DNA from: a virus
Length of the DNA stretch: 31,963 nt
Strand: one strand, 5' to 3'
Virus record (IMG/VR): IMGVR_UViG_3300042890_000645
Span: 1-31,963 of that record
Every line of letters starts with the position of its first letter. Positions within the stretch are counted from its first letter, which is position 1. This document shows, one piece after another, positions 1 to 31,963 of the stretch. The translations under genes and the position numbers were made by a program. The notes under the pieces are model-generated. The model was not told the DNA's origin, made no database searches, and saw nothing but the letters and a program-made list of their open reading frames with translations.

Positions 1-38
1 TTTTTGTTGTTCATAACTGATTTTTTTGTGTTTTTCAT
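1..38 (-). CDS. Start of a gene running off the left edge (partial)
   Basis: Only the first codons are present. An ATG at 38 opens MKNTKKSVMNNK and continues in frame past position 1; a second in-frame ATG at 14 is preceded by AGTT, the same context found before several early genes at the right end, so 14 may be the true start. A promoter of the phage's repeated type lies at 84-115 in the correct orientation, which supports a real gene. Too little is visible to assign a function. Confidence 0.4.
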   Translation of the reverse strand, partial: MKNTKKSVMNNK

Positions 39-83
39 ATTAAATAATTTTTATATATACTCCCTCTCATTGTTGGGAATACC

Positions 84-115
84 CAAATATACGAAAAATA
101 CTTTAATCTACCAAA
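84..115 (-). promoter_or_regulatory. Bacteroidota-type promoter, copy 1
   Basis: On the minus strand TTTG (115-112) is followed after exactly 20 bp by TATATTTG (91-84), a full match to the Bacteroidota -33/-7 consensus (TTTG, TAnnTTTG). The block shares GGTA just after TTTG and TTCGTATATT at the -7 end with copies at 28245-28276 and 29410-29439. It would start transcription near position 77 and drive the gene leaving the left edge. Confidence 0.8.
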
Positions 116-152
116 CATTTTCTAAACTATTTTTAAGGTTTTCTATAAGTGA

Positions 153-330
153 TTGATTATCAACGAGTTATAAAGCGTTGATTTTCAATGACTTATGGGT
201 TTTAACAAAACTTTAACATATTAAAAAAAGGTAAATATGCAAGTTATTGATTATCAATAAGTTATGAAAAATCACCTAAAATGTTGATTTTCAATGAGTT
301 ATGCAACTAATTGATTATCAACCAGTTATG
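153..330. repeat. Five imperfect 20-bp dyad repeats (iteron-like)
   Basis: Five direct copies of TTGATTWTCAAynAgTTATr lie at 153-172, 178-197, 247-266, 284-303 and 311-330. Three carry the core TTGATTATCAA, an inverted repeat with one central base; the copies at 178 and 284 carry TTGATTTTCAA, so the two types alternate A, B, A, B, A. Start-to-start spacing is 25, 69, 37 and 27 bp. The array lies in a non-coding stretch between a terminator (364-387) and a promoter (84-115). Dyads in an intergenic array suggest protein-binding sites, either operators for the leftward promoter or origin iterons; the sequence does not decide between these. Confidence 0.75.
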
Positions 331-363
331 AAAATGGGGTATTTTTGGGTAAAAATTGGGTAT

Positions 364-387
364 AAAAAAACCCCTATTTTAAGGGGT
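364..387 (-). terminator. Intrinsic terminator closing the structural transcript
   Basis: Reading leftward, ACCCCT (387-382) pairs with AGGGGT (375-370), a 6-bp stem with a 6-nt A/T loop, followed directly by seven T residues (370-364). It lies 94 bp beyond the last recognised gene (481-606) and would end the long leftward transcript. Confidence 0.75.
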
Positions 388-410
388 ATTTTCCGTATAT
401 TCTCCGATTT

Positions 411-463
411 GGTATGTAGATACCATTTATGTATTAAAGTCTCTTAAATTAGGTTATAACCTA
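411..463. other. Two short perfect dyads in the 3' untranslated region
   Basis: GGTAT-GTAG-ATACC (411-424) is a 5-bp stem with a 4-nt loop, and TAGGTTATAACCTA (450-463) is a 14-bp perfect palindrome. Both lie between the last gene and the terminator. They may be protein sites or 3'-end RNA structure; no function is assigned. Confidence 0.5.
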
Positions 464-480
464 TTTTCTGTTGATTTTTA

Positions 481-606
481 TTATCTACCTTGTCCTCTAT
501 ATCTTTTTGGTTTAGATGAATGCTTATTATATGATTTTTTAGCACTACCTTCTTTTCTTTTACCAAATGATACTTTGTTATTGCTAGATACTTTTCCCTT
601 TGCCAT
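481..606 (-). CDS. Small basic protein, 41 aa
   Basis: The ATG at 606 begins MAKGKVSSNNKVSFG and the frame ends KRYRGQGR at a TAA at 481-483. About a third of the residues are Lys or Arg and there is no acidic patch except one Glu. Small basic proteins ending in YRGQGR occur at the end of the tail gene cluster of related Bacteroidota phages (recalled, not searched). The gene overlaps the end of the preceding membrane protein gene by 23 bases, typical translational coupling. Its charge suggests nucleic acid or capsid-interior binding, which is inference only. Confidence 0.65.
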   Translation of the reverse strand: MAKGKVSSNNKVSFGKRKEGSAKKSYNKHSSKPKRYRGQGR

Positions 607-862
607 CCATTAAGTATTTTACTTCTGTTTCCAATCTTGCAACTTGTGCAGTTAAATTTATTATGATTGCTCTCATCTCATCCTTTTCTTTTGATGATTG
701 TTCTAACAGAGCTTCTAATTTAGATATTCTACTTTGGCAATCGTTTCTGATAAATCTTTCATCATCTTCTTTATGTGCAGCTCTTTTCTCAAAGTATCTC
801 CATGCACCTGCACCACCTAATGTGGTTATAGCTGTTATGATTACGGTGTATATATTCTCCAT
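584..862 (-). CDS. Membrane-anchored coiled-coil protein, holin/spanin-like position
   Basis: The start at 862 (MENIYTVIIT) is preferred over the upstream ATG at 910 because the previous gene stops at 864-866, only one base before it. The 92-residue product has one N-terminal hydrophobic segment (about residues 4-20, IYTVIITAITTLGGAGAW) and then a charged helical region with heptad-like leucines (about 45-85). One transmembrane helix followed by a coiled coil near the end of the structural operon fits a lysis-associated or membrane-tethered phage protein. No holin family was recognised with certainty and no endolysin was found nearby. Confidence 0.6.
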   Translation of the reverse strand: MENIYTVIITAITTLGGAGAWRYFEKRAAHKEDDERFIRNDCQSRISKLEALLEQSSKEKDEMRAIIINLTAQVARLETEVKYLMDGKGKSI

Positions 863-863
863 A

Positions 864-1187
864 TTAATCTTCTTTTTCTTCTGGCACACAATTTGGAACC
901 ATTCTACCATCTAACTCTTTCATTCCTATTGCAACATATCCTTCCCAACATGCTCCTTCTAATCCATCTTCTGCAAATAAGTTGATACCTCTAAAATCAG
1001 TATCGTATGCTACTTTAGCCATTACTTTTGCAGATGTATCGGTTATCTTACTCATATTATCTTTTCTCCAATAAGAGTAGCAAATAGCTGCAGCTTGGTC
1101 TTGTTCGTATCCTGCTGATACTTCTTCTGATATACATCTTCCAATAAAATCAGCCTCTTTCTCGTTTGGTTTTACTTTAACTGGCAT
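864..1187 (-). CDS. Conserved phage hypothetical protein next to the protease
   Basis: The 107-residue product begins MPVKVKPNEKEADFIGRC. The N-terminal part carries a motif EADFIGRC...YEQDQAAAICYSYW (residues 11-40) that recurs in proteins beside XkdF-type proteases in many phages. The C-terminal part carries CWEGYVAIGMK (about 80-90) and ends with a PNCVP motif (about 97-101), another short module seen fused to or next to such proteases. Four cysteines are present. The gene lies 10 bp after a 108-residue unknown and stops immediately before the membrane protein gene. Role unknown; capsid assembly or maturation is a guess from context. Confidence 0.7.
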   Translation of the reverse strand: MPVKVKPNEKEADFIGRCISEEVSAGYEQDQAAAICYSYWRKDNMSKITDTSAKVMAKVAYDTDFRGINLFAEDGLEGACWEGYVAIGMKELDGRMVPNCVPEEKED

Positions 1188-1196
1188 AATATTTTT

Positions 1197-1523
1197 TTAA
1201 TAAATTATCGTATATGATTTACCTTCAAATTTAAATGAAGATATATTATCGTATGTTAGGGTTCTCCAACCTTCTATTGTATTAGGTGCTTCCAAATTAA
1301 CCATACCTTCAGCTTCTTTTGTAAAACTTTGGTCACTTGCTGAAAAGTTATCACCCCAAAATACTTCGTGTTTAGTTCTATGTGTTGGTGGTATTGCAGT
1401 TCTCCACTTTATCTCCATTGTGTTTGTAGAAGATGTTCTTTTCAACATTCTCTTAAACTCCAATATTGATACCTTTGGTAATGCAAATCTATCTATATTC
1501 TTTATGTAAGTTTCTTGGTTCAT
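1197..1523 (-). CDS. Hypothetical protein, 108 aa
   Basis: The product begins MNQETYIKNIDRFALPKVSI and ends with SFKFEGKSYTIIY. It is soluble in composition, mixed alpha/beta, with a Trp-rich centre (WRTAIPPTHR, EVFWGDNF). No family was recognised. It starts one base after the protease gene ends (1525) and is followed by the EADF/PNCVP protein, so it is probably co-translated with the maturation genes. Confidence 0.65.
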   Translation of the reverse strand: MNQETYIKNIDRFALPKVSILEFKRMLKRTSSTNTMEIKWRTAIPPTHRTKHEVFWGDNFSASDQSFTKEAEGMVNLEAPNTIEGWRTLTYDNISSFKFEGKSYTIIY

Positions 1524-1524
1524 A

Positions 1525-2709
1525 TTATTTCAATGCTGGTGCTACACTACCACTAGCAACTTCACCTGGATAAGATGATGTAATAGATGGTTGTGCTTCC
1601 AATTCTTCTATATGATAAAGATATTCACTAGTTTCAGTATGAACTGCTCCTGTCATTAATCTACCATCAGGACCTTTATGTGTTGGGCCTGTATATAATT
1701 TACCATCAGCAGTATAATGTGGAACACCTTCTGCATTCTCTTGTAATAATCCTAATTCTTTTAATTTATTGTGTGCCCATCTACCTGCTGCTAACCCTCC
1801 CCAACTCATCATCATCAGATAACCACATCCATCCCCGAATGATTTTGATGTTTCCAAATCTACTTCATGTCTACTAACATATGAGTAGATGCGTTTGATT
1901 GTATCCACCGAGATAGGTTCACCTTTAGCCAACTGGTTTACACGCTGCTTACCAACGGCAGTTCCGCAAGAACCCCATCCGTTTTTTTCTACCCAATCCA
2001 ACGCTCTCTTTGCATTGTTCTTAACTCCTTCTGGATAATCTGAATAAGACTCAAATTCTATTCTTTCTCTTTTCTTAAATCTTTTATCCTTCTTTATAAT
2101 TGCTTTGATTTGACCTAAAAAGATTTCTGCTTCTTCTTCTGTAAAATCATTAATATCTTTCTCTAATGATAAAGTAATGTTGCTCTTCTTGTGTTCAAAA
2201 ATCCCTTCAATACTGAAGCCAGCAAATTCACCTTGCTTTACTCTTTCCCATACCTTTGGATTATCTTCAACTGAATAAATTGAAAACCATGTTCCTTTTG
2301 GTAATGTAAATCCGTATAAGTTTGATTTATCTTTTGTTGGAGTTTCAACTATCCAACTCTCAACCATTGTAATTCCAGATGTTTTATTTCCGTGCTCTAA
2401 TGTCACCTCTGATAATAGTTTATTTTTCATAAACTTTCTGGAAATCTTTTCGATGGTTTCAGGTTTGAAATATACCCAGTATTTAGTTCCATCTTCTTTT
2501 AAACGAAGTATCTTTTGATTAGGCACTAACATAGGGCCTGCAATTAACATCTTTTCATCATTAACTGCTTCAAAATTATATTGTTTATTTAACCAAACAT
2601 AATCTCTTTCTATGGCCGGTGATGCTACTAATGAATTAGCAAATACACCATCTTCCTCATCGACTAATACTAGTTCAAATAATTCTTCTGTATTTTTATC
2701 TCTTACCAT
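1525..2709 (-). CDS. XkdF-type putative phage maturation protease
   Basis: The 394-residue protein has an N-terminal XkdF-like domain (about residues 10-175). Visible hallmarks are NSLVASPAIE (25-34), the GPMLVPNQKILR strand (58-69), TLEHG with H106, and GFSIEG with S166; the His and Ser are the expected catalytic pair of this putative serine protease family. The C-terminal part (about 215-320) is a separate helical module with YPEGVKNNAKRALDW and a GTAVGKQRVNQLAKGEPIS motif, a domain often joined to phage prohead proteases. The protein should process scaffold and capsid during head maturation. Its place after the tape measure, about 14 kb from the capsid gene, is unusual. Confidence 0.75.
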   Translation of the reverse strand: MVRDKNTEELFELVLVDEEDGVFANSLVASPAIERDYVWLNKQYNFEAVNDEKMLIAGPMLVPNQKILRLKEDGTKYWVYFKPETIEKISRKFMKNKLLSEVTLEHGNKTSGITMVESWIVETPTKDKSNLYGFTLPKGTWFSIYSVEDNPKVWERVKQGEFAGFSIEGIFEHKKSNITLSLEKDINDFTEEEAEIFLGQIKAIIKKDKRFKKRERIEFESYSDYPEGVKNNAKRALDWVEKNGWGSCGTAVGKQRVNQLAKGEPISVDTIKRIYSYVSRHEVDLETSKSFGDGCGYLMMMSWGGLAAGRWAHNKLKELGLLQENAEGVPHYTADGKLYTGPTHKGPDGRLMTGAVHTETSEYLYHIEELEAQPSITSSYPGEVASGSVAPALK

Positions 2710-2740
2710 GTTATATAAACATTAAAATCTTATAAAATAG

Positions 2741-4638: not shown

Positions 4639-4656
4639 ACTATATAAACAATTAAA

Positions 4657-5592
4657 TTAAGATATATAAGTGATGTTGGATTTACTACCTACTTTCTCTA
4701 CCCATTTATAATACTCATAAGAACAATAATCCTGTGAAATTTGGAGGTTTATTCCATAAGGTAAGGTATTTGTATATCCACCTTTATAGAACAAATTTTG
4801 AGCCATTTCTGTCACTCCTGCATTATGTAAGAATTGTTTACCTTGCATAAATTCTATTTTATCAGTTGCCCAACAAAAAGATAACTTATCACTAATCTTT
4901 ACTTCATTTCCAAAATACCATGCATTCCAAAGTAATGACCACATTCCTGCAGTCCATTTTTGTATTGGATAATCACCATCATGTTTTTTTTGGTATAGAT
5001 GTTCTGTCTCACAAAACATTTTATATAACTGAATACTATCCCTTTCAACTTTATTCCAAAAAGAGTATGTAGAGTTTTTAATTAAATGTTGTGCACCACC
5101 TGAATTTGAATTACATATCTTTGCTATTATACCATCCAATCCAACTATATCTAACATTCTTTGATATACATCTTCACCTTTTTGCATGATGTAATCGTAA
5201 TTGATATAAGATTTCGTATCACTAAAATACCAAATCTTATCTGCAAGTAATTCCCAATTTTGTTCAAATGGTTTTAACAATATTGTATCACTATCGTGAA
5301 ACATTATTATTTCATTCTCTAATTCAGGGAATGCTCTAAAATGTTGTTTTACTGCATTAAAATAAATAGAAGGGATATAAGACTTATCACTCCTACTATC
5401 ATTATAAAAGTAAAAATGAATGAACGGATAATTTCTCTGCAAAAGTTGAATTTCTTTCGGTAAATCACCATCCACAAGAAATAGAACATGAATATCGTTA
5501 GGAGAAACCCCATTTTCTACAAAATTATTTATATAAACTTCTACTTGCCATGCATAATAGATTGTTGCAGGTTGTGCAGATATCCATTTCAT
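4657..5592 (-). CDS. Glycosyltransferase-like protein (GT-A type, DxD motif)
   Basis: The 311-residue protein begins MKWISAQPATIYYAWQVEVY. It has the layout of a GT-A nucleotide-sugar transferase: beta strand VLFLVDGD (36-43), IIMFHDSDTILLKP (95-108) with the metal-binding DxD as D100-S101-D102, an acceptor-side segment SNSGGAQHLI (162-171), and a late histidine in FLHNAG (254-259). No signal peptide or membrane segment is seen. It lies directly downstream of the gene for a tail protein with a long Thr/Ser tract, one base apart. A role in glycosylating that protein is an inference; modifying host glycans or another virion protein is also possible. Exact family is uncertain. Confidence 0.65.
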   Translation of the reverse strand: MKWISAQPATIYYAWQVEVYINNFVENGVSPNDIHVLFLVDGDLPKEIQLLQRNYPFIHFYFYNDSRSDKSYIPSIYFNAVKQHFRAFPELENEIIMFHDSDTILLKPFEQNWELLADKIWYFSDTKSYINYDYIMQKGEDVYQRMLDIVGLDGIIAKICNSNSGGAQHLIKNSTYSFWNKVERDSIQLYKMFCETEHLYQKKHDGDYPIQKWTAGMWSLLWNAWYFGNEVKISDKLSFCWATDKIEFMQGKQFLHNAGVTEMAQNLFYKGGYTNTLPYGINLQISQDYCSYEYYKWVEKVGSKSNITYIS

Positions 5593-5593
5593 A

Positions 5594-6418
5594 TTAACAA
5601 ATAGCGTTTACGGAGAATATTAAATTAGGACTTCCTCCAATTGTTCCTGTGACAATACATCCAGTAAATACCGTGCTATTTCCATCAACAGTTCCACCAA
5701 CTCCACTTCCACCACATCCAGTTGCACTCCAATATCCTGTTGAAGAGTTTGTATTTGTTATTTGATAACTAGAACAATCAGGTGCTAAAGTAGTTGTAGT
5801 TGTGGTCGTTGTCGTTGTAGTAGTCGATGTCGTTGTTGTCGATGTTGTAGTAGTCGATGTTGTTGTAGTTGTTGTAGTTGTTGGCGTATTGCTTTCAGCA
5901 GATGCAAATGTATCAGGAATGATTGGCCCTAATAATTGTAAATTACATTCACCTGTTTTAAGTGAGTAATCATTAATTGCTCTTAAATGATAATAGTTTC
6001 CTCTGAAATTTACAATATCGTTTAATTGTATTTCATAATAATCTTTCAAAGGAATAATTGCAGAACAATTTAATAATCTCGTTCTAGGGTCATACAATAA
6101 TCCTACATAAGTTGACCAATATGTTGAATATAAACTATCTGTTGGTATTTCACCATAAGCTGCATTTTCATTATTAAAAAGTAATGATTTACTATCAGTT
6201 GTTGGAAAACTACCACTTACTACATTATAGTTGTCAAAATATGGAAATACATTTTGTTCATATGTCACTCCACCAAAGGCAGCTGACCCACTTTCAATAT
6301 AATAACCTTCACAATCTATCAAACCATTGTAAAAAAGTAAACGAGGTAAAACTCTAGCCGGTGCAAAGGTTGCATTGGAAATATATGTTGGTATGTATAT
6401 TGGTATAATTTGACTCAT
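5594..6418 (-). CDS. Tail tip protein with Thr/Ser mucin-like linker
   Basis: The 274-residue protein has three parts. Residues 1-176 look like the continuation of a tail hub, with RLLNCSAIIPLKDYYEIQL (114-132) and FRGNYYHLRAI (138-148), strings typical of tail-tip proteins in these phages. Residues 178-210 are almost only Thr with three Ser, a mucin-like linker. Residues 215-274 form a small Cys/Gly/Ser-rich beta domain with four cysteines, probably the exposed tip. It follows the 675-residue hub gene and precedes the glycosyltransferase gene. The linker should be extended and is an obvious O-glycosylation target. Confidence 0.7.
   Translation of the reverse strand: MSQIIPIYIPTYISNATFAPARVLPRLLFYNGLIDCEGYYIESGSAAFGGVTYEQNVFPYFDNYNVVSGSFPTTDSKSLLFNNENAAYGEIPTDSLYSTYWSTYVGLLYDPRTRLLNCSAIIPLKDYYEIQLNDIVNFRGNYYHLRAINDYSLKTGECNLQLLGPIIPDTFASAESNTPTTTTTTTTSTTTTSTTTTSTTTTTTTTTTTTLAPDCSSYQITNTNSSTGYWSATGCGGSGVGGTVDGNSTVFTGCIVTGTIGGSPNLIFSVNAIC
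5789..5887 (-). repeat. Threonine-codon repeat tract
   Basis: On the minus strand this is a run of 33 near-identical ACN codons broken only by three Ser codons (TCN or AGC type). All four Thr codons are mixed (ACA, ACT, ACG, ACC) rather than one pure trinucleotide, so the amino acid tract has been kept while the DNA has diversified. It encodes residues 178-210 of the tip protein. Confidence 0.85.
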
Positions 6419-6429: not shown

Positions 6430-8457
6430 TTAACAGAAGAACCCGGTTCCATATCCAATTTCTCCGGTTGATGAATTTAATGAATATATTTCATTTGCAC
6501 CACCACCGGTATTAAATACCATCCAATTAAATCCAATAACAGGATTGTTTCCATAAGGGTCTGTGTATGCAATTTTACCACTTTGGAATGTGCCTGTATC
6601 TGTGTATAATTGATAGAATGCAGCCTCTGTAAAGTTTCCACAAACTAATCCTGCATTACTAACATAAGAAACTTTATATGTTCCAATTGAAAATACATTT
6701 GGTTGAGGATTAATTCCACCTACACTACCTGAAAGACCTGTTCCTGCTATTCTAGATAATGGAGTAGATGCAAATGTAGTTTTAACATCAAATGAACCTT
6801 GTGAATAAAAGTTTGTTGTATCTGTGTAATAAGATTTTCCGTATTCTCTATTTACTTCCTTTGAGAATTGTTGTGAAATATAATCCTGGTCTAAAGTATC
6901 TCCGAAGTTTAATTTATTTACAGCAAGACTATTTGCAGGGATTACTTCAATTGTATCATTTAAATTAATGTATTTATTAAAATCTCTTACTTGTCCGGTC
7001 TTATACCAATTATTAAATGTTTCAATAATAAAATGATTTGATTTAGTTCTATCCGGATAAATTACTAAATTAAATTTCTTTTGTAATCCTAATATAAAAT
7101 CAATTTGTTTGATACCCTGTGTTCCAAATGGCATGTTAGATGGAATATCCAACACTCTACCATCGGCAGCTTGATTAACTTGTCTAATTTCTAAAAAAGA
7201 TTTAGAGCTTCCTTGTGGGTCTAATGTCACGACAGGTTGTCCAGTAGGTGGTGCAAAATTAGGTGATTGGCGGATTTGAAAATAATAATTACCTGCTGGT
7301 ATACTATTAAATTTAAACTCACTTGCTAACTCATATGTTGTATTGATACCACCAGTTCTACTTTGTTGTAATTCATCAAAGAAGTAAATAAAAGATTGAA
7401 CTGCTTGTGTAGAATAAGGAGTTGAACTACCTGTTTCTAACATACGGATTTGCCATGTTCCATTTGCTGAAAGTGTACCTGGCATATTATTTACCGAGCA
7501 ACTTACATTTATGTTTATGTTTAATGCACCTTTTAAGTTAGTTGTTTGTTCAACTTTATATGCACCATTATTATAAAAGTCTTGTGGGTCAGATAATTCA
7601 TTATACCAAGGTAATGTATTCCAACTTCCACTAGTCAATACAACATCTGTCATACCACTACCACTAATTGCACCTATTTTTATCTTACCATATGTTTCCA
7701 AATCAACACCTGTATATTCAGGATATTTTAATGAATTATTACAAACCATATAAACATCATCTAAAAACGCTTGGTTCATAAATGATGATGAGTAAGAATA
7801 TCCTGCTTCTGCAAATATTGCATCCAATACAGGTTTAACTCTAATTGCAGGTTTAAAATTTTGAACTGTCAATGCACCATCCACATCATCCATACCAAAT
7901 AAATCTAATCCACCTTGTGTAAATCTATATCCACTACCATAATCTGCAAGTGGATAAACTATATCTCCACTAAATAAATTACCATTCCAACTTGCTGTAA
8001 TATTATCGTAAGATGAAGTGTGATTATAAATTGCTAATGAAGTTAAATCAGTTAAATAGTTTCTATTGATATCTCTTGCAAATGATGATAAAGAACCATA
8101 CAAAGTAATTTCGTAAGACTCAATAAATTTATTTGCTTTAACATTTACTTTATTCAATTGTAGATAACCTTCAATCAAATAAACAGAGTCAAAATCTATA
8201 TAACAAGGCACTTTAATATTTGTTGCAAAAAGAAATGGATTTACAATACTAATATCATAAACATGTTCAAAGAATGCATTATTTACTTTTGTTCCTGGTA
8301 AAGTAATCTGACGAGTAAAATCAGCAGGTAAAACACCTACATCAAATAACCCAGTCACATTATTAGATAACTTTATATCTTCATCCTGAAATATATCTAA
8401 TTGTGTTCCGTCTGCTACTAATCGGAAAGTAAACGCTTGTGTTGATATTATACCCAT
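6430..8457 (-). CDS. Tail hub / tail-tip structural protein
   Basis: The 675-residue protein starts MGIISTQAFTFRLVADGTQLDIF. It opens with a beta-rich region containing VLPADFTRQITLPGTKVNN (42-60), a pattern (…DFT..I.LPGT..NN) recognisable in hub-like tail proteins of Bacteroidota phages and prophages. A later segment, QIDFILGLQKKFNLVIYPD (about 452-470), resembles the phospholipase-like or hub domain strand of such proteins. It overlaps the stop of the distal tail gene by one base. Likely role: baseplate/tail-tip hub at the end of the tube, nucleating tail assembly with the tape measure. Assigned from composition, size and context. Confidence 0.6.
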   Translation of the reverse strand: MGIISTQAFTFRLVADGTQLDIFQDEDIKLSNNVTGLFDVGVLPADFTRQITLPGTKVNNAFFEHVYDISIVNPFLFATNIKVPCYIDFDSVYLIEGYLQLNKVNVKANKFIESYEITLYGSLSSFARDINRNYLTDLTSLAIYNHTSSYDNITASWNGNLFSGDIVYPLADYGSGYRFTQGGLDLFGMDDVDGALTVQNFKPAIRVKPVLDAIFAEAGYSYSSSFMNQAFLDDVYMVCNNSLKYPEYTGVDLETYGKIKIGAISGSGMTDVVLTSGSWNTLPWYNELSDPQDFYNNGAYKVEQTTNLKGALNININVSCSVNNMPGTLSANGTWQIRMLETGSSTPYSTQAVQSFIYFFDELQQSRTGGINTTYELASEFKFNSIPAGNYYFQIRQSPNFAPPTGQPVVTLDPQGSSKSFLEIRQVNQAADGRVLDIPSNMPFGTQGIKQIDFILGLQKKFNLVIYPDRTKSNHFIIETFNNWYKTGQVRDFNKYINLNDTIEVIPANSLAVNKLNFGDTLDQDYISQQFSKEVNREYGKSYYTDTTNFYSQGSFDVKTTFASTPLSRIAGTGLSGSVGGINPQPNVFSIGTYKVSYVSNAGLVCGNFTEAAFYQLYTDTGTFQSGKIAYTDPYGNNPVIGFNWMVFNTGGGANEIYSLNSSTGEIGYGTGFFC

Positions 8458-14318: not shown

Positions 14319-15605
14319 TTATCTAAATATTTCGTATTCTTTATTGTTTAAATTCAACATAGAAAATCCTTCCATTTCTTCTGTTGGTTTCGGTTCTATT
14401 ATCGTTTGTTCTGCAGTATCATCAGTTGTTGCAGGATTTTCCATTGCATCATTTGTTTCATCTTCAACCTGTGCAACCGTCTTACCAGTTTCTTCTGCAG
14501 TTTGAGATAAGATTACTAATGGAGTTAATTGTTCAAAGTATAATCCCATATCATCCCATCCACCTTCTGTCAATGCATAATCTAATGCATTTAATATTAA
14601 GTTTTGGAATGGAGAGATTGTCATTGTTTGCATAATAGAGAATGCTGTTTTCATTTCCTCACTTTGAGAAGAGAAACCATTATTTTTAGTTCTTATACCA
14701 AATAGTAATGGACTGGTCACTCTATGTGCAACTAATATTCTATCTTGTGTGTATTCTGCAACATAATCATACTTCTCATGCAAATTAGGAATATCAATAA
14801 TATCCAAAGTAGGTTTAGTATTCGGGTCATCGTTAAATGATAACATAAATCTACCTGCGTTATCTGTTCCTGTAAATTTAGCTTGAACTAAATCTTCTAT
14901 TGTTTGTCTTTCTTCAGGTGCTGGAACTCCATTATTAAAATTAATCATAACAGATGGTAAGAAACCATTGATGATATTATTAAAATGTAAATTACTAATC
15001 TCACCTTCTGAAATACTAAATTGCATTGCTGCAACCCAATCAGGTAGGGAATAATAGTATAAACCTGGACAATAATGTTTGATGTAAAGGATTTCCATTT
15101 TATCTTTAGATGTTCCAAAAGCAGGTATTTTCTTTTTATCTTTTACCTTTCTCTGGTCATCCCAATCAACACAATAATAATAGTTTTCTATTCTTGGATT
15201 AGAATATATCTTTTCTGCTCTCAAATATTGAACAGGAATATGATACATCTTAATTATTTTAGTATGTTCATCATTCCAATAAACTTGATATGCGGCATTA
15301 CCAAATAATTTTAAATCAAATGCTACCTTTTTAGTTTCTTCCTGTGGAATTAATTTTTGTAATACATCGTTCTTTACTAAATCCTTTGAATATAATCCTT
15401 TACCATATACTAAATCAGCAATACCTTCTATACAAGCATTGTTAGTTGTTGATACATTATATGCAGTTGTCACTGCACTAAAAAAGTCGTCATGTCCATA
15501 AACACCAAAAGGCACCCACGAATAACGAGTTTTAGTATCTTCCGTTATGATTGGAAGAGAATTATTATTTACATTAACGATTGAAAATTGTTGTTTACCT
15601 TTCAT
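14319..15605 (-). CDS. Portal protein
   Basis: The 428-residue protein starts MKGKQQFSIVNVNNNSLPII. Features of phage portals: an N-terminal clip/wing region with NNACIEGIADLVYGKGL (55-71), the strand pair of the wing domain with an IYSNPRIENYYYCVDW segment, a YYSLPDWVAAMQFSISEGEISNLH stretch (about 185-208), PAPEERQTIEDLVQAKFTG (about 226-244) as the stem-helix region, and the crown-like SSQSEEMKTAFSIMQTMTISPFQ (about 330-352). The last 60 residues are acidic and Thr/Glu-rich. Role: dodecameric ring at one capsid vertex through which DNA is packaged. It lies downstream of the capsid gene, the reverse of the usual order. Confidence 0.8.
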   Translation of the reverse strand: MKGKQQFSIVNVNNNSLPIITEDTKTRYSWVPFGVYGHDDFFSAVTTAYNVSTTNNACIEGIADLVYGKGLYSKDLVKNDVLQKLIPQEETKKVAFDLKLFGNAAYQVYWNDEHTKIIKMYHIPVQYLRAEKIYSNPRIENYYYCVDWDDQRKVKDKKKIPAFGTSKDKMEILYIKHYCPGLYYYSLPDWVAAMQFSISEGEISNLHFNNIINGFLPSVMINFNNGVPAPEERQTIEDLVQAKFTGTDNAGRFMLSFNDDPNTKPTLDIIDIPNLHEKYDYVAEYTQDRILVAHRVTSPLLFGIRTKNNGFSSQSEEMKTAFSIMQTMTISPFQNLILNALDYALTEGGWDDMGLYFEQLTPLVILSQTAEETGKTVAQVEDETNDAMENPATTDDTAEQTIIEPKPTEEMEGFSMLNLNNKEYEIFR

Positions 15606-16707: not shown

Positions 16708-17676
16708 TTAGTAAGCTCCGTAGTAAACGATGTCTTGACCGATACCGAATTGAGTTCCACCTGTGTATCTCATTACAATTCTGTAATTTTGAGAACCATC
16801 GATGTTAGCCATATCGATAACTTTAACTTCGTTGTAATCAGACATTAAACCTGTTCCGAAGAATAAGTTTGATTTTTGTGCTGCAACGATTTTGTCAGAA
16901 CTCATACCTGGACACCATACAATCTCAATACCATTGAAGTTGAATGGTTTTTCACCCACGTTCATTTGGTTGTTCCATCCGTTTGCACCGATAGCACCAC
17001 CTGCTAAAGCTTGTTGGTATGCTTTTGCTACATTCGTAGATACATACAACAATACATCAGGCTTACCATATACTGTGTCAGGAATAGTGTTTACAACTGA
17101 ATTTAATTTGTCTAACACGTTTGCTGAAGTCACACTACCAGAGATTACGATTGAACCACTCTTAGCTGCTAATACTGCACCTGCACCACCTGCTGCAATA
17201 GATGCAGAGAATGCTGTTTGGAAACCACCGAATTGACCGTTAGTTGCAGTTGAACCTTGCCAGATAGATGTTTCAGTTGCTTCTGCTACTTTACCACCTA
17301 CATAAGAAATTAAGAAATCGTTGAAGTTCTTTGGAATTTCATCGAATGCAGAGAAACCTAATTGTAAAGCTTCCCAGCTATCTACGAACTCTTGCTTACA
17401 TAATAGTAAGTTAACTTGTAATTCTTTTGGAGTTAATACTTGCTCAGACAATGCAACCGAACCTGAAGTCACGAAGTCACATGATGCGTCTTGAACAATA
17501 CCGCTCACATCTAATTTTTGGATTACAGACTTGAACTTCACGTTTGGCATGATAGTCACAAGCTTCTTATCCAATGTGTTTGCACTTAACAACGCTGCTG
17601 CGATGTATCCTGATGCTGCTTCACCTGCGTAGGTAGAAGTAATTGTAGGAAGTGCAAAGTTTTGTTTTGCTTTCAT
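16708..17676 (-). CDS. Major capsid protein
   Basis: The 322-residue protein starts MKAKQNFALPTITSTYAGEA. It has the layout of an HK97-fold capsid: N-terminal arm, TLDKKLVTIMPNVKFKSVIQ (34-53), a long helix region QEFVDSWEALQLGFSAFDEIP (about 93-113) and NDFLISYVGGKVAEATETSIW (about 117-137), KPDVLLYVSTNVAKAYQQAL (about 203-222) in the A-domain, and a C-terminal MRYTGGTQFGIGQDIVYYG. It lies directly after the scaffold gene and is followed by its own terminator. GC content and codon use look higher than in neighbours, with Gly, Ala and Asn codons fitting strong expression. Confidence 0.85.
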   Translation of the reverse strand: MKAKQNFALPTITSTYAGEAASGYIAAALLSANTLDKKLVTIMPNVKFKSVIQKLDVSGIVQDASCDFVTSGSVALSEQVLTPKELQVNLLLCKQEFVDSWEALQLGFSAFDEIPKNFNDFLISYVGGKVAEATETSIWQGSTATNGQFGGFQTAFSASIAAGGAGAVLAAKSGSIVISGSVTSANVLDKLNSVVNTIPDTVYGKPDVLLYVSTNVAKAYQQALAGGAIGANGWNNQMNVGEKPFNFNGIEIVWCPGMSSDKIVAAQKSNLFFGTGLMSDYNEVKVIDMANIDGSQNYRIVMRYTGGTQFGIGQDIVYYGAY

Positions 17677-23849: not shown

Positions 23850-25025
23850 TTAATAATGTATGTTTCCGATTGTTAAGGCATACCTACCTTTGTTTTGTGC
23901 TTTCTGTGATAGTTTCATCATGCAACAATATCTCGCTGCATCAATTAAGTGGTCGAGGCCACCTTCTGGTGTATCTGTTGTATATCCGTATTTATCCGAT
24001 GCGTATTGATAGGCATACATCTCATTGATTAGATTAGTTGATTTCTTTGTGACGAATATCTTATGGTTTTGCATTACACTAATACCAAACTTAATACTAT
24101 CCTTTCCTTTAACAACAGGCTTAATATTAAATCCACTACGATACAACTCCTCTATTAAACGGGGTTCTGCACTATCTGCCCATATCTCTTCTGATTTTGT
24201 AATGTCCAATCTATTCAATCTATCTACAATATCTTTCGTCACTAATCCTTTTTCATAAAGTAATTCCTCTATATAAATTCTATCTCCACTTTTATATACA
24301 GCAACTAATGCAGTTGGGTCTTGCGAGAAACCAAAGTCAATACCAAATCCTACGAAATCTGCATCAAACTCACCACACGTTTCAAATTGGAATATTGCTT
24401 TATCGTTAGGTGCAAACTCTCCCTTACCATACACTAACCATTGTCTATAATTCTTATGTTCCAAATCTTCAATTGCTTTAACCATTTCAACTGGTAAGAA
24501 TGTATTATCTCTATATGTTGTTGTAAATCTATCACAATCCTGCATCTGTCTTAACCAATGCATAGGAGATACAGTCGGATTGTATGCAAGTATTATTCTG
24601 CCTGTTGTTCTTATACTCAACTGAAAATAACTTTCCTCATCTATTTCCGATGCTTCATCAATAAAAAGAATGTCTGATTTAATCCCTCTTAACTTCTCTG
24701 CATCATCTGTTGAAATAAATTGTATTGTTGAATTGTAGTAATGCCATATTCTATCAGTAGCATTGTAATCATCTTCTCTCCAAATATCCAATGATTTAAG
24801 AATATCAATGAAATCTTTTATGACTGTTCTCTTTAATGAAGGAATAGTTTTACGGACTACTGTCACATTTAATCCATCATTTGAAATCATCTGAACTAAT
24901 AACCATTGTAGAATTGCATATGTTTTACCACTTCTCGTTCCTCCAATGTGTTGTGTTATTCTTGTCTTAGCGTCTTGAATGTGCCCGTATGTGATTGTTG
25001 TTTGTATATCAATTGCTTCCGGCAT
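23850..25025 (-). CDS. terL: Terminase large subunit
   Basis: The 391-residue protein carries Walker A GGTRSGKT (28-35), Walker B ILFIDEA (119-125) with the catalytic Glu, and the coupling segment RIILAYNP (143-150). The C-terminal RNase H-like nuclease has GIDFGFSQDPTAL (228-240, D230), IWADSAEP (281-288, D284) and GLDHLIDAARY (356-366). This is the PBSX/SPP1-like large subunit type (ATP-driven packaging motor plus headful or site cleavage). Its first bases overlap the small-subunit stop by 17 nt. LNVTVVRKT shows the Val-Thr codon bias discussed in findings. Confidence 0.95.
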   Translation of the reverse strand: MPEAIDIQTTITYGHIQDAKTRITQHIGGTRSGKTYAILQWLLVQMISNDGLNVTVVRKTIPSLKRTVIKDFIDILKSLDIWREDDYNATDRIWHYYNSTIQFISTDDAEKLRGIKSDILFIDEASEIDEESYFQLSIRTTGRIILAYNPTVSPMHWLRQMQDCDRFTTTYRDNTFLPVEMVKAIEDLEHKNYRQWLVYGKGEFAPNDKAIFQFETCGEFDADFVGFGIDFGFSQDPTALVAVYKSGDRIYIEELLYEKGLVTKDIVDRLNRLDITKSEEIWADSAEPRLIEELYRSGFNIKPVVKGKDSIKFGISVMQNHKIFVTKKSTNLINEMYAYQYASDKYGYTTDTPEGGLDHLIDAARYCCMMKLSQKAQNKGRYALTIGNIHY

Positions 25026-27410: not shown

Positions 27411-27414
27411 ATTT

Positions 27415-27564: not shown

Positions 27565-27565
27565 A

Positions 27566-27763: not shown

Positions 27764-27764
27764 A

Positions 27765-28214
27765 TTAGTTATTTACATTTAGTGATTTACCATTCTTCTT
27801 CAATGCAATAATCATTTTACTTTCAATCACTCTTAATTGTTCACTACTGATATTTCCTAAATCAGCAACTAATTCAAATGTGTGAGCATCTATTCCCCAT
27901 TTATCGAATGATTTATATAACATTGGGAATTTTGTAATTTTATTATTAAGATGCAAGTTGTAATCTGCTCTGTGTGTTGTAAATCTTAAATGTAATAATC
28001 TTTGTGTGCTTCCGATGTATGTATCCCCTATTGGATTAACAATCCTGTATATAAGAGAGGATTTATTACTTTTCATGTATTCACCATGAATTTCCTTTTT
28101 ACAACAGGTGCAGTATGCCTGATATCCATCAGGTGATTTACTTTCTTTGTTGAATTGATTTGTGGGTTTTTCTTCACCACATTTGCTACATCTTTTTGTT
28201 AATTTTTTAGCCAT
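27765..28214 (-). CDS. GIY-YIG endonuclease with N-terminal zinc finger
   Basis: The 149-residue protein has an N-terminal zinc finger C9-x2-C12 ... C35-x2-C38, of the kind that precedes many phage homing nucleases. The GIY-YIG core follows: the GIY position is IYR (55-57), YIG is at 66-68 (DTYIGST), with R77, H81 and the metal-ligand E131 (RVIESKMI). The first motif lacks its usual Gly-Ile-Tyr spelling, keeping Tyr56. It is a free-standing gene with its own phage promoter (28245-28276). Likely a mobile nuclease or a role in recombination or host DNA cleavage. Confidence 0.8.
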   Translation of the reverse strand: MAKKLTKRCSKCGEEKPTNQFNKESKSPDGYQAYCTCCKKEIHGEYMKSNKSSLIYRIVNPIGDTYIGSTQRLLHLRFTTHRADYNLHLNNKITKFPMLYKSFDKWGIDAHTFELVADLGNISSEQLRVIESKMIIALKKNGKSLNVNN

Positions 28215-28244
28215 TGTTTTTAATTTTAGTTTAAATCATTTAGT

Positions 28245-28276: not shown

Positions 28277-28314
28277 CTTTCTTCTGGAATATATATCAGA
28301 ATAATATTAAAAGC

Positions 28315-28357
28315 AAAAAAAATGCCCAGTTGAGAGATGGCACAAACTCAACCGGGC
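28315..28357 (-). terminator. Intrinsic terminator after the replication gene
   Basis: Reading leftward, GCCCGGTTGAG (28357-28347) pairs with CTCAACTGGGC (28334-28324), 10 of 11 pairs with one mismatch, closing a 12-nt loop; after AT the strand runs into eight consecutive T (28322-28315 region). It separates the replication transcript from the GIY-YIG promoter. Confidence 0.85.
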
Positions 28358-28371
28358 TATGATTTAAACTA

Positions 28372-28433
28372 GTAAGAACACTGCATATGTTTAATGATAA
28401 TAATCGTCGCAGCTATTGTAATTAAGTTCTTAC
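28372..28433 (-). other. Structured 3' region between replication gene and terminator
   Basis: GTAAGAAC (28433-28426, minus strand) pairs with GTTCTTAC (28379-28372), closing a 46-nt region in which CTGC (28412-28409) can pair with GCAG (28384-28381). It lies just before the terminator stem. It could be a small RNA's body or a 3'-end stabiliser. No ORF is seen in this 250-bp gap. Confidence 0.4.
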
Positions 28434-28464
28434 ATAGAATAAACACTACTTTTATTTTTTATAT

Positions 28465-29283
28465 TTAATTTATGAATTGTAATGTGTTAGAAAAATAATT
28501 TCTCCAGTTATTTAACACTGCTTCATCTTCTTCATAACAAATCTGAAGTATGTTATCAAAACTTTCATAATCATCTTTTATATCAGCTAATAACTTCTTT
28601 GCAGCTGGAATATTATTATCATCAATATATTCAGTTAACTTATCTAAAGTTTGTTTAGCTAACTTTATATTCATATTATGATTTATACTATTATCATTTA
28701 TACTATTATCAGCATATTCTTGTTCTAGTATTTTATTATATTCTTCTATATAATACTCTTCTAATAATGCTTCAGTTTCATCTATTTTCATTTTATTTAA
28801 TTCAGTTTTATTTACTTTTATTTCCTTTACTTTACTTTCTTGGTTAATGTTTACATTATCATAGTTATTGTATACATTAACTCCGTTATTGATAGGTTTT
28901 TGTTGTAATAACTTCATTCGTTTAGAGTTATTGATACAATAACCTTTTCTTCTACTCAATACATCTTCTTCCAATCTTTCAGTTAATTTATCACAATGTA
29001 ATATGTTTCCTGTTAATTGAAGTAAATTTAATTTAACACAGTAATCAATAATTTCTGATAATTCATCTGCATCCAAATCAAAATCAGGAGTTAGTAATTC
29101 AATGTTCATTTCACTCCATTCAATTTCAAAGTAATCGTTTTCAGTTAGTAATTCTAACATCATAATATAAGTTGCATATCCTAATGCCTTATACTTTCTT
29201 CTTAACGCTTTTACTTTCATATCATTCCTCATATTACAATCATGTGAGAAATAATCAGCGTTGTGTTTAATTGGTCGTGCCAT
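28465..29283 (-). CDS. Replication-type protein (DUF4373, Lin1244/Lin1753-like N-terminus)
   Basis: The 272-residue protein starts MARPIKHNADYFSHDCNMRN. The N-terminal domain (about 1-115) shows the DUF4373 pattern: YFSHD...MRNDMKVKALRRKYKALGYATYIMMLEL in part, DYFEIEW, a helix-turn-helix-like region, and DVLSRRKGYCINN (about 107-119). This domain occurs in phage and plasmid replication initiators of Bacteroidota and Firmicutes. The C-terminal part is acidic and low in complexity with Asn/Ile-rich helices, likely for partner (helicase or loader) binding. It has its own promoter and a structured leader (29295-29389). Confidence 0.75.
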   Translation of the reverse strand: MARPIKHNADYFSHDCNMRNDMKVKALRRKYKALGYATYIMMLELLTENDYFEIEWSEMNIELLTPDFDLDADELSEIIDYCVKLNLLQLTGNILHCDKLTERLEEDVLSRRKGYCINNSKRMKLLQQKPINNGVNVYNNYDNVNINQESKVKEIKVNKTELNKMKIDETEALLEEYYIEEYNKILEQEYADNSINDNSINHNMNIKLAKQTLDKLTEYIDDNNIPAAKKLLADIKDDYESFDNILQICYEEDEAVLNNWRNYFSNTLQFIN

Positions 29284-29294
29284 AATTTAATTAA

Positions 29295-29389
29295 AAACCC
29301 CATTGAACTATGAAATCTCACTTCATAATTCTCAGGGGTTTGTTTTGGAATTTCTTCCGTTATCTTTAATACAATGTGAGATATTGTAT
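29295..29389 (-). promoter_or_regulatory. Leader RNA with predicted kissing hairpins and terminator-like stem
   Basis: In the transcript from copy 3 of the promoter: hairpin 1 has stem ATACAAT/ATTGTAT (29389-29383 with 29375-29369) and a 7-nt loop ATCTCAC (29382-29376). Hairpin 2 has stem TATGAA/TTCATA (29327-29322 with 29314-29309) and a 7-nt loop GTGAGAT (29321-29315). The two loops are perfectly complementary. Hairpin 2 sits inside an outer stem AAACCCC/GGGGTTT (29341-29335 with 29301-29295), followed by a short T run and the replication gene start at 29283. Looks like an attenuator or small regulatory RNA. Confidence 0.65.
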
Positions 29390-29409
29390 GTTTGTTAATT
29401 GATATGTGT

Positions 29410-29439
29410 AATATACGAATAATATTTCACTTTACCAAA
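29410..29439 (-). promoter_or_regulatory. Bacteroidota-type promoter, copy 3
   Basis: TTTG (29439-29436), 20 bp, TATATT (29415-29410) on the minus strand; the -7 lacks the final TG of the consensus (TATATTAC). Flanks match copies 1 and 2 closely. It would start transcription near 29402, giving a leader of about 118 nt before the replication gene. Confidence 0.75.
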
Positions 29440-29465
29440 TATAAGTATCAAATAATTTTGAAATA

Positions 29466-29495
29466 AGAAAACCCGGCACAACTTAATGTGCCGGG
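29466..29495 (-). terminator. Intrinsic terminator of the early operon
   Basis: Reading leftward, CCCGGCACA (29495-29487) pairs with TGTGCCGGG (29480-29472), a perfect 9-bp stem with a 6-nt loop, followed by TTTTCTTATTT. It ends the transcript that carries the right-end early genes. Confidence 0.85.
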
Positions 29496-29498
29496 GTG

Positions 29499-29536
29499 GT
29501 TAGGAAATAGAAAAACCTAACTTTGGTTATGATAAC
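29499..29536 (-). other. Extra hairpins upstream of the early terminator
   Basis: GTTAGG (29521-29516, minus strand) pairs with CCTAAC (29504-29499) across an 11-nt A/T-rich loop, and GTTAT-C-ATAAC (29536-29526) is a dyad. Both are in the 3' untranslated region between the ART-like gene and its terminator. Possible mRNA 3'-end structure; no ORF seen. Confidence 0.4.
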
Positions 29537-29554
29537 AAACAAATCCTAATTTAA

Positions 29555-30181
29555 TTACACTAATATTTTACCACCAATTTGTTTAGTTTTGTGTGGTGAT
29601 GTTTTCCAATGTAGTATCATTTTATTATAGAACTCTTCTGCTAATTTAGGATTACCATTTATTTGGTAATGTGCAGTTTTACTTCCAACTATGTATTCTT
29701 TATTTTCAGTATCATACATTAACATATTTTCAAATCCTTTCATCATCAAATCAATCCTCATCTTTTTGGTAGGTGCTGAATACTTTTGTGTATTAACTAA
29801 CTCAACACAATCATAATCATCTCCATCAATAAAACATTCTTCAAACTTTAATAAAGATGGGTGAATTGTTTTCTGATAAATTACACATTCACTTTGTTGT
29901 GCATCTTTCATCTTTTGAGGAAAGTAATCACTTAATTGATTTGCATAATCCTGAAATGGTATTAATAATTCATCATCAGTATCAACTTCAAATATAGCTA
30001 ACCCTAATGATTTATGTTTTCTCTTAAACCATAATTCTTCTCTACATCTAATCCAATCCAATGAACTAATTGCATCATCCGTAAAGTATACACCATTATC
30101 GGATATGTTTTTAATCAATCCACTTTGCATAACGGATTTCATTTTATCCATTGTAAATGCGTGATAGTATGTTTTTTTCAT
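29555..30181 (-). CDS. Possible ADP-ribosyltransferase-fold protein, 208 aa
   Basis: The protein starts MKKTYYHAFTMDKMKSVMQS. Its first 115 residues follow the layout of ART/KptA/Arr-like folds: YYHAFT with H7, MKSVMQSGLI (14-23), NGVYFTDDAISSLDWI with Y32 (29-44), LAIFEVDTDD (61-70), and SECVIYQKTIHPSLLKF with E98 (97-113). The H-Y-E order and the '…GVY.T.…A..W…VEVD…P..L' run are what one expects. The C-terminal 90 residues are unrecognised. It could modify a host protein or RNA early in infection. Assignment is by pattern recognition only and may be wrong. Confidence 0.45.
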   Translation of the reverse strand: MKKTYYHAFTMDKMKSVMQSGLIKNISDNGVYFTDDAISSLDWIRCREELWFKRKHKSLGLAIFEVDTDDELLIPFQDYANQLSDYFPQKMKDAQQSECVIYQKTIHPSLLKFEECFIDGDDYDCVELVNTQKYSAPTKKMRIDLMMKGFENMLMYDTENKEYIVGSKTAHYQINGNPKLAEEFYNKMILHWKTSPHKTKQIGGKILV

Positions 30182-30184
30182 AAC

Positions 30185-30328
30185 TTATTTTTTATCTTTT
30201 ATTGTTTTGTTAATTAGGTTTGATACGAATACACTCATTATAAATCCATGTTGTTTACAATATTCTTTTAATAAAGCGTGTGTTCTTTTTGGTAGTTGCA
30301 ACATTGCATACTCTTGTTTCTTTTCCAT
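30185..30328 (-). CDS. Ribbon-helix-helix protein, 47 aa
   Basis: The ATG at 30328 opens MEKKQEYAMLQLPKRTHALL and the frame ends NKTIKDKK at TAA (30185-30187). The strand YAMLQLPKRTHALLK, a turn, and the helix IMSVFVSNLINKTIK match the Arc/CopG ribbon-helix-helix fold (beta strand, helix A, helix B with the buried hydrophobics). Four bases separate it from the ART-like gene. Such proteins are phage transcriptional repressors; the dyads at 153-330 or 29295-29389 would be candidate targets, untested. Confidence 0.65.
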   Translation of the reverse strand: MEKKQEYAMLQLPKRTHALLKEYCKQHGFIMSVFVSNLINKTIKDKK

Positions 30329-30332
30329 ATTT

Positions 30333-30521
30333 TTAGTTTATAACTTGATTAAATACATTTTCTACTTCTTCCAATTGTTCATCAGTTGGACCTGTTTGAT
30401 TATCATCTAAATCCCAATATAAAGTTTCGGTAAGATAATCACATACCCAATTCCATAATTGTTCTTTTGATAAATTCCAAGGACAATATCGGATTATCCT
30501 TTCCATTTGTTCTACTTTCAT
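30333..30521 (-). CDS. Hypothetical protein, 62 aa
   Basis: The product starts MKVEQMERIIRYCPWNLSKE and is acidic and helical, ending EEVENVFNQVIN. The N-terminal MKVEQ string is also the start of the 87-residue protein (31307-31570), suggesting a shared small-gene origin or shared start context. No function recognised. Confidence 0.55.
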   Translation of the reverse strand: MKVEQMERIIRYCPWNLSKEQLWNWVCDYLTETLYWDLDDNQTGPTDEQLEEVENVFNQVIN

Positions 30522-30536
30522 ACTATTGTTTTTATA

Positions 30537-30821
30537 TTAATCAATCCATTGGTTTGCTACTTTGTAAAATACTCTTTCTATTGCTTCACTTCTTTTTCTT
30601 CTTTGATATGGAGATAAATCTTTTGTTAAGGTTGCATCATACATCCATACTTTTTCAATATCCGAATGAACTTCACTTTGAATAATACGAGTTTGTAATA
30701 ACTCATCCATTAATTCTTTATCAACTTTGATATCGTTTTTTAATTCTTCAATCTCTTTTTCCAATGTATCAATAATACCTTCTAATAATTTTTCTTTACT
30801 TAATTTACTTTTGTATATCAT
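30537..30821 (-). CDS. Hypothetical coiled-coil protein, 94 aa
   Basis: The product starts MIYKSKLSKEKLLEGIIDTL. Residues about 8-45 form a coiled coil (LEKEIEELKNDIKVDKEL), then a region with WMYDATLTKDLSPYQRRKR and a C-terminal helix. The start carries the recurrent AATAAGTT box. No family recognised. Confidence 0.55.
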   Translation of the reverse strand: MIYKSKLSKEKLLEGIIDTLEKEIEELKNDIKVDKELMDELLQTRIIQSEVHSDIEKVWMYDATLTKDLSPYQRRKRSEAIERVFYKVANQWID

Positions 30822-30827
30822 AACTTA

Positions 30828-31166
30828 TTATTTTACTATTTGTTTACTAATTGTTTTAAACCATTTAATCTTTCCACTTTCTTTTAATTTACTCATATTA
30901 GGAAAGATTACATTTTCATTTGCATAATATAATGCCTGTTTCTCACTCCACGCTTTCACTTTGAAATTGATAGTGTTTGTTCCTTTATCAGTTTCAATTG
31001 TAGCTGATACATTGTAAGTTGTTCCGTTATTATCAATCTCCTGTTGTTTATACTCCTCAATTTTATATTTGGATGTTTCATACACAACCTTTTCAATAGG
31101 GAAAAATCTCCTCTCTAAATCTATCAGGCGTTGTTGTAATTGTTCTATTGTTTGTTCCATAACCAT
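30828..31166 (-). CDS. Hypothetical protein, 112 aa
   Basis: The product starts MVMEQTIEQLQQRLIDLERR; an in-frame ATG at 31160 (MEQTIE) is equally likely. An N-terminal coiled coil is followed by a beta-rich half with NVSATIETDKGTNTINFKVKAW (about 52-73) and EKQALYYANENVIFPN (about 75-90), reminiscent of small ssDNA-binding or antitoxin-like beta folds but not diagnostic. It overlaps the 52-residue gene upstream by 22 bases. Confidence 0.55.
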   Translation of the reverse strand: MVMEQTIEQLQQRLIDLERRFFPIEKVVYETSKYKIEEYKQQEIDNNGTTYNVSATIETDKGTNTINFKVKAWSEKQALYYANENVIFPNMSKLKESGKIKWFKTISKQIVK

Positions 31167-31303
31167 TCCAATTTTAATAGTGATTTAATAAATTCTCTTC
31201 TACTCATTTTAGTATAGATTTTGTTTAACTTACTTCCTTTTGTATATTTTGTTGAAAGGAAATGTGCGTTTTCTGATAATTGTTTGTGTGTTAATTGTGC
31301 CAT
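31145..31303 (-). CDS. Hypothetical basic protein, 52 aa
   Basis: The ATG at 31303 opens MAQLTHKQLSENAHFLSTKY and the frame ends LEWLWNKQ at TAG (31145-31147). It is basic (13 Lys/Arg) and helical with MSRREFIKSLLKLEW near the end. It fills the 140-bp hole between its neighbours and overlaps the next gene by 22 bases. Function unknown. Confidence 0.55.
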   Translation of the reverse strand: MAQLTHKQLSENAHFLSTKYTKGSKLNKIYTKMSRREFIKSLLKLEWLWNKQ

Positions 31304-31306
31304 AAT

Positions 31307-31570
31307 TTAATCTTTTCTAATTGAACGCTCTAATAATTGTTCGTATGTTTCTAAATGTGTTTCTACCGAATTTTTGTTTACAATCCATTGCCTGAAATTC
31401 ATAAGTGCAGTTAGTGCACCTCTTTCCATACTCATACATTCGTTGTATGTTTTGATACTTCCATAGATTTCTTTCACTTCATCTTTTTGATAGGATGCCA
31501 TTCTATTAACACTATCCGTTAATACTTTGATGTTCTTATCCATTTGTTCCAATAATTGTTCTACTTTCAT
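31307..31570 (-). CDS. Hypothetical helical protein, 87 aa
   Basis: The product starts MKVEQLLEQMDKNIKVLTDS and is almost wholly helical with two Met-rich turns (ECMSMERGALTALMNF). Likely a small coiled-coil dimer. No family recognised. Part of the tightly spaced early cluster. Confidence 0.55.
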   Translation of the reverse strand: MKVEQLLEQMDKNIKVLTDSVNRMASYQKDEVKEIYGSIKTYNECMSMERGALTALMNFRQWIVNKNSVETHLETYEQLLERSIRKD

Positions 31571-31583
31571 AACTTTGTTGTTT

Positions 31584-31760
31584 TTATTTTGTGTTTACTA
31601 ATTCTAAAATTCTTTTATATCCTTCAATTCTACCTTTAATGAATGTAATATCTTCTTTCCATTCACTTTCGTTTTGATAACTATCACTTTGGTATTTACC
31701 TTCAATTTGTTTCAAACTTTTTTGGGATTGTTTGATTAAATCCATAATTAATGTTTCCAT
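31584..31760 (-). CDS. Hypothetical protein, 58 aa
   Basis: The ATG at 31760 opens METLIMDLIKQSQKSLKQIE and the frame ends RILELVNTK at TAA (31584-31586). The start codon is preceded by AATAAGTT, the recurring early-gene context. The product is helical and charged (WKEDITFIKGRIEGYKR). It fills the space between its neighbours. Function unknown. Confidence 0.55.
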   Translation of the reverse strand: METLIMDLIKQSQKSLKQIEGKYQSDSYQNESEWKEDITFIKGRIEGYKRILELVNTK

Positions 31761-31763
31761 AAC

Positions 31764-31955
31764 TTATTTTTTAATTCCATTTAATCTTTGAATTTCTTCA
31801 CTTTGAATTTTTATCATATCGGTTAAACTTCTTACTCTCATTTCTAATTGAGTAATGTAAGAACCGATACCTTCACCATTACCATTTAATTGTGGGAAAA
31901 GAACTTCTTCATAGAATTGGTGTTTCTTTTCAATCTTTGTGTTTTTAATCATCAT
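31764..31955 (-). CDS. Hypothetical protein, 63 aa
   Basis: The product starts MMIKNTKIEKKHQFYEEVLF, with an alternative ATG one codon later. AATAAGTT lies just upstream at the window edge. The C-terminal half is a coiled coil (YITQLEMRVRSLTDMIKIQSEEI in part). First complete gene of the window in transcription order; the operon continues beyond the right edge. Function unknown. Confidence 0.55.
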   Translation of the reverse strand: MMIKNTKIEKKHQFYEEVLFPQLNGNGEGIGSYITQLEMRVRSLTDMIKIQSEEIQRLNGIKK

Positions 31956-31963
31956 AACTTATT

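Follow-up and report, generated by a model that had tools for sequence, protein, structure and literature searches.

The viral contig IMGVR_UViG_3300042890_000645 of IMG/VR (positions 1 to 31,963; this whole stretch of 31,963 nucleotides is called the window here) contains neither GTTAC nor GTAAC. Read from either strand, both are one duplex word, GTWAC, so that one 5-mer of 512 is absent. We consider it very probable that this loss is classic avoidance of the sites of an orthodox Type II restriction-modification (R-M) system that recognizes GTWAC. The hosts would probably be Bacteroidota and would restrict GATC and GAWTC too, and usually GTAC as well.

Absence of GTWAC from the window

The exact counts in the window were 0 for GTTAC, 0 for GTAAC, 35 for GTCAC and 7 for GTGAC (GTSAC 42 in total). 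Below, pairs written x/y or x vs y after a word are observed and expected copies; fractions of codons, aligned sites or contigs are also written x/y. A zero-order model predicted 65 copies of GTWAC. The strictest null permuted synonymous codons among positions of the same amino acid, so that the proteins and the codon usage were fixed (1000 shuffles), and it still predicted 58.2 ± 5.1 copies (range 44-77). Under the same null, GTSAC was threefold enriched (42 vs 13.5), and GTTAAC was not avoided (8 vs 10.5). GTATAC was present in 6 copies (10.9 by the zero-order model).

An earlier note on this DNA, written from the letters alone, had claimed that GTTAC and GTAAC are absent from the window and that about 60 copies would be expected, and both statements were borne out. 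It was also right that GTTAAC (at least seven copies by its reading) is not avoided and that GTTAT and GTAAT are common (57 and 96 copies). Its estimate of three to four dozen copies of GTSAC stood as well, but its view that GTSAC is merely normal did not. Furthermore, in the Markov-model comparison that it had proposed, GTAAC still ranked in the top two of the 512 duplex 5-mers for depletion under a maximal-order model, with 27 copies expected per strand.

Codon choice and the route of site loss

The loss did not depend on the reading frame. Before ACN codons, Val was written GTG in 29 cases and GTC in 7, and never GTA or GTT; all 36 cases agree with the observation of the earlier note on Val-Thr pairs. 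Elsewhere, 454 of the 509 Val codons were GTA or GTT and 55 were GTC or GTG (Fisher p = 1e-31 for the comparison with Val before ACN). After xGT codons, Tyr and Asn were written TAT or AAT in 58/58 cases (TAC or AAC in 0/58). In addition, a codon ending in G never preceded TTA followed by C (0/70). Three distinct codon choices thus gave the same DNA outcome, which indicates selection on the duplex and not on protein or transfer RNA supply.

Related phages (described below) were aligned to the window at 80-96% identity; the relatives overlap, so that one site may be counted more than once. In the window, none of the 646 GTWAC occurrences of the aligned relatives was retained, while 44% of 5-mers matched in composition were unchanged. 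One substitution is enough for 518 of these 646 losses, and 455 of the 518 (88%) are synonymous. Among the 518, replacement of the middle W by C or G was the most frequent change (T>C 201, A>C 52 and T>G 23). The GTSAC enrichment is the direct footprint of this escape from GTWAC. In non-overlapping pairs, GTWAC was also never kept (0/10 vs L084, 0/9 vs L161 and 0/17 for L248 vs L249), and the controls were kept at 43-54%.

Other words lost with GTWAC

The earlier note had regarded GTWAC as the one degenerate palindrome lost, which is not so: it is the fourth of a set with GATC, GTAC and GAWTC. Under the codon-preserving null, the window had GATC 0/69, GTAC 1/84, GAWTC 0/48 and GTWAC 0/58. The sole GTAC site of the contig lies at 7475..7478, with no strand assigned (exact count). 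GASTC was normal (10/11) and GTSAC was spared, so both 5-base losses are specific to the W centre. When all 4- to 6-mers were scanned without bias against a similar null, GTAC and GATC came out as the extreme 4-mers and GTAAC and GAATC as the extreme 5-mers. The latter two were also the only duplex 5-mers with zero copies, at least 12 expected and no depleted 4-mer inside. All four extreme words are palindromes or quasi-palindromes within 4-6 bases.

Two other depletions were seen in the window. ACGT was low (5 vs 36) and ACGTA was absent (0 vs 26), and CTACAG/CTGTAG was also absent (0 vs 20).

Distribution among related phages

Searches of IMG/VR with terminase, portal, tail and capsid sequences gave 365 related loci (235 non-redundant, numbered with the prefix L). 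Among the informative contigs, GATC was lost in 204/224, GTAC in 28/230, GAWTC in 28/198, CTWAG in 21/129 and GTWAC in 6/216. GTWAC was zero in independent contigs of the window's species (L002, L003, L004, L082, L083 and L193). Beyond this species, it was eliminated in L248 (0/24), in the L298 clade (1/70; L298, L325, L320, L308, L309, L319 and L314) and in L185 (0/11). GTSAC was enriched in all of the avoiding lineages (46 vs 15.8, 16 vs 7, 50 vs 24.7 and 8 vs 3). When relatives were compared, as the earlier note had suggested, the loss thus recurred in at least three phage lineages, and GTSAC was always spared.

The GTWAC state changed three times on the capsid tree and three times on the portal tree; L185 had no capsid gene and L248 was outside the portal set. 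These trees indicate at least three, and up to four, independent elimination events. Close relatives differed in state. GTWAC was kept in the closest capsid relatives of L248 (L249 40/43, L277 19/22) and in the closest portal relative of the window, L084 (16/21), whose portal is 97% identical. The capsid gene of the window is 98% identical in L194, and that contig keeps GTWAC (23/24). Furthermore, some of the close relatives that keep GTWAC share metagenomes with avoiders. For example, in metagenome 3300027659, the counts were 0/11 in L320, 23/24 in L070 and 37/45 in L092. Normal counts in contigs of the same metagenome exclude a library artefact.

Several relatives lacked other words. In L298, L320, L308 and L314, ACSGT was reduced to 1 vs 41 with ACWGT near normal (37 vs 51), which is possibly an S-centred specificity; TCGA was also reduced in these contigs (1 vs 49). 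CTWAG was eliminated in L114, L117, L147, L177 and others, and CTSAG was also lost in some of these loci (CTNAG) and partly retained in others. L192 is Flavobacterium phage FpV9, a cultured phage of F. psychrophilum from a related group with a different set of avoided words: CATG 1 vs 66, CTAG 0 vs 12 and GTSAC 2 vs 23, with normal GTWAC (49 vs 45).

Independence of the words and recombination

GAWTC, GTAC and GTWAC were lost in differing combinations across the relatives. A single enzyme for GTAC and GTWAC could be rejected, since L006/L093 and L147 have no GTAC yet keep GTWAC, and in the L298 clade the loss is more complete for GTWAC than for GTAC. A single enzyme for GAWTC and GTWAC was rejected in the same way, since L073, L149 and L134 lose GAWTC yet keep GTWAC. 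Thus, the differing combinations in L006/L093 and in L073, L134 and L149 point to separate specificities.

GTWAC loss was found only alongside GATC loss. It also accompanied GAWTC loss (Fisher p = 0.0001, uncorrected for relatedness), save in L005, where the evidence is weak (expected count 7). These co-occurring losses of GTWAC, GATC and GAWTC suggest that the hosts accumulate several such restriction systems.

L161:1-10024 is a recombinant with a sharp shift in site load near position 5000. The right half matches the window at 91% identity and has 1 GATC, 1 GTAC and 2 GTWAC; the left half has 7, 8 and 14, respectively. This shift is the junction of lineages with different host histories.

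Genes of the window and the probable host

The features of the window used in this study are as follows.

1..31963: whole contig of a Bacteroidota-type tailed phage, with all called genes on the minus strand
14319..15605, minus strand: portal protein gene (PHROG portal, E = 2e-57), used for relatives and tree
16708..17676, minus strand: virion structural protein, probable major capsid (phrog_11320, phrog_1623), used for relatives and tree
23850..25025, minus strand: large terminase gene
27765..28214, minus strand: small predicted nuclease, with an endonuclease VII-like zinc-ribbon start and a homing-endonuclease-like rest (PHROG); GIY-YIG by eye
29555-31955, right end: several species-specific genes, function not assigned

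By portal and capsid, the only clear cultured-phage relatives were Nonlabens phages, and the closest cultured phages by terminase infect Bacteroides, Phocaeicola and Flavobacterium. Because of this kinship, the host probably belongs to Bacteroidota.

No match to PF01555 or PF02384 was found in the window or in the other avoiders (PF00145 was not searched, and the contigs may be incomplete), and there was no PF02086 match in the window, where the contig may likewise be incomplete. Among 50 related contigs, PF02086 was not found, and PF01555 was found in 3, all non-avoiders of GTWAC. Protection of the phage by its own methylase is thus not supported for the families searched (PF01555, PF02384 and PF02086 in the window). 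The lack of such methylases in avoiders is consistent with escape by site loss and not by modification.

Some other features were noted. The contig of L015 (G005:C1:10712-12939) has two or more stretches like PF01555 N6/N4 methylases, one of them with internal stops, and it completely avoids GATC and GTAC. In the window, 5594-6418 encodes a predicted tail-region protein with long threonine-serine runs (TTTTTTTTSTTTTS), and 4657-5592 encodes a PHROG 4417 protein whose best cultured-phage relatives are in Chryseobacterium, Lactobacillus and Enterococcus phages. The terminase match region L041:10001-11158 has one in-frame stop codon.

Restriction-site avoidance and alternative explanations

In a survey of prokaryotic viruses, the eliminated sites belonged almost exclusively to orthodox Type II systems, and the phages concerned were mostly non-temperate; Type I and IIG sites were not eliminated (PMC6286503). 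GTWAC in the window behaves like an eliminated site: its count is far below a codon-controlled null, it was lost synonymously in every frame, and its state changes between close relatives. The inferred agent of selection is a host Type II R-M enzyme with GTWAC as its site, and Bacteroidota are the inferred hosts. The phage lineage would repeatedly infect hosts whose endonuclease cuts GTWAC and spares GTSAC and GTTAAC. Every unmodified GTWAC site would be a liability to the phage, and sites would be removed, mainly by single synonymous substitutions, until none was left. The same hosts would also restrict GATC, GAWTC and, mostly, GTAC. The proposal of the earlier note, namely that a DNA-targeting system recognizing GTWAC but not GTSAC exerted selection, is thus the best-supported reading, and codon usage, composition, deamination and artefact all failed as explanations.

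Three points weigh against Type II avoidance. L185 is a short contig, as are several others (expected counts 6-11), and individually they are weaker evidence. The host was not linked, since alignments of the terminase and portal against GTDB genomes (two scans) matched nothing. In addition, no R-M gene, methylase or methylation datum was found for GTWAC.

It is improbable, though the best of the alternatives, that GTWAC is read by another host defence, such as a Type III, bacteriophage exclusion (BREX)-like or other DNA-targeting system. GTTAC and GTAAC are a single duplex 5-mer, so the counts alone are compatible with an asymmetric reader. However, elimination is almost confined to orthodox Type II sites in surveys (PMC6286503), and GTWAC, GAWTC and the CTWAG of the relatives are odd-length, W-centred quasi-palindromes, which suit dimeric Type II enzymes.

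A site-specific nuclease of the phage itself might degrade host DNA at GTWAC, with the phage having purged its own sites instead of modifying them. The small nuclease-like protein encoded at 27765-28214 and the species-specific right-end genes of unassigned function (29555-31955) would be candidates. However, the former has homologues in about 30 relatives, most of them with normal GTWAC counts, which makes self-avoidance unlikely, and no homologue was detected in the other GTWAC-avoiding contigs, which are fragments. Four separately switching specificities would also need four nucleases. We therefore think this explanation improbable too, and marginally more so than another host defence.

Mutation without restriction, in which deamination of methylated cytosines erases the sites, is very improbable. 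Some losses are indeed C to T or G to A, but deaminating the outer cytosines could not turn the central W into C or G, which is the commonest change. In addition, synonymous changes make up 88% of the single substitutions, and GTSAC is threefold up. An artefact of assembly or library, or an effect of composition or codon usage, is equally improbable: low G+C and strong codon bias can make words rare, but the codon-preserving null still gives 58 copies, independent contigs of the same species are also zero, and phages from the same metagenomes as other avoiders are normal.

Comparison with known systems

Enzymes of the Tsp45I type read GTSAC. They share with the GTWAC of the window the GTxAC frame with a restricted centre, which is S there and W here; this specificity is ruled out, since GTSAC is enriched. 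MaeIII recognizes GTNAC, and M.MaeIII is an N6-methyladenine (m6A) methylase (PMC10113651). GTNAC and GTWAC are both GTxAC quasi-palindromes, but MaeIII would also select against GTSAC, which is enriched here and in the other avoiders, so that it is ruled out as well. GTWWAC methylases are found in Ralstonia methylomes (PMC5390034). This site has the same GT...AC ends and W-only centre, but it is six bases long, and it is ruled out by GTTAAC (8 vs 10.5) and GTATAC. A GAWTC m6A methylase is known in M. thermoacetica (PMC6700114), and TfiI/PfeI-type systems also read GAWTC. This site is likewise a W-centred 5-bp quasi-palindrome and is eliminated in the window. However, its half-site is GA/TC and not GT/AC, and some relatives lose GAWTC without GTWAC loss.

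The earlier note could name no enzyme for GTWAC. In agreement with this, GTWAC had no match as an R-M motif in open-access papers (REBASE was outside that search). CTWAG also had no match as an R-M motif in open-access papers, where GTTAC was found only within an off-target Type I motif of N. gonorrhoeae.

Site avoidance itself is well known, and the GTWAC specificity is probably new. As in virulent double-stranded DNA phages (PMC6286503), short palindromic sites of the orthodox Type II kind are wholly eliminated here in a tailed phage. In contrast to that survey, the site was deduced here without a known enzyme, four words were lost together, and the loss recurred across several lineages of one uncultured phage group. 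On balance, we lean towards an undescribed Type II specificity, GTWAC, that is common enough in freshwater bacteria to purge several phage lineages independently. It would be one of a set of W-centred pentamers (GAWTC, GTWAC and perhaps CTWAG) whose systems occur together in the hosts of a single phage group.

If this is true, phage genomes record the restriction specificities of uncultured hosts. The missing word gives a testable prediction, namely that uncultured hosts, probably Bacteroidota, carry an endonuclease and a methylase for GTWAC. Since the purged set differs from one close relative to the next and moves along with recombined segments, the absent words would be a readable record of the restriction systems of recent hosts. 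Such a record may be useful for host prediction and for the culture-free discovery of enzyme specificities.

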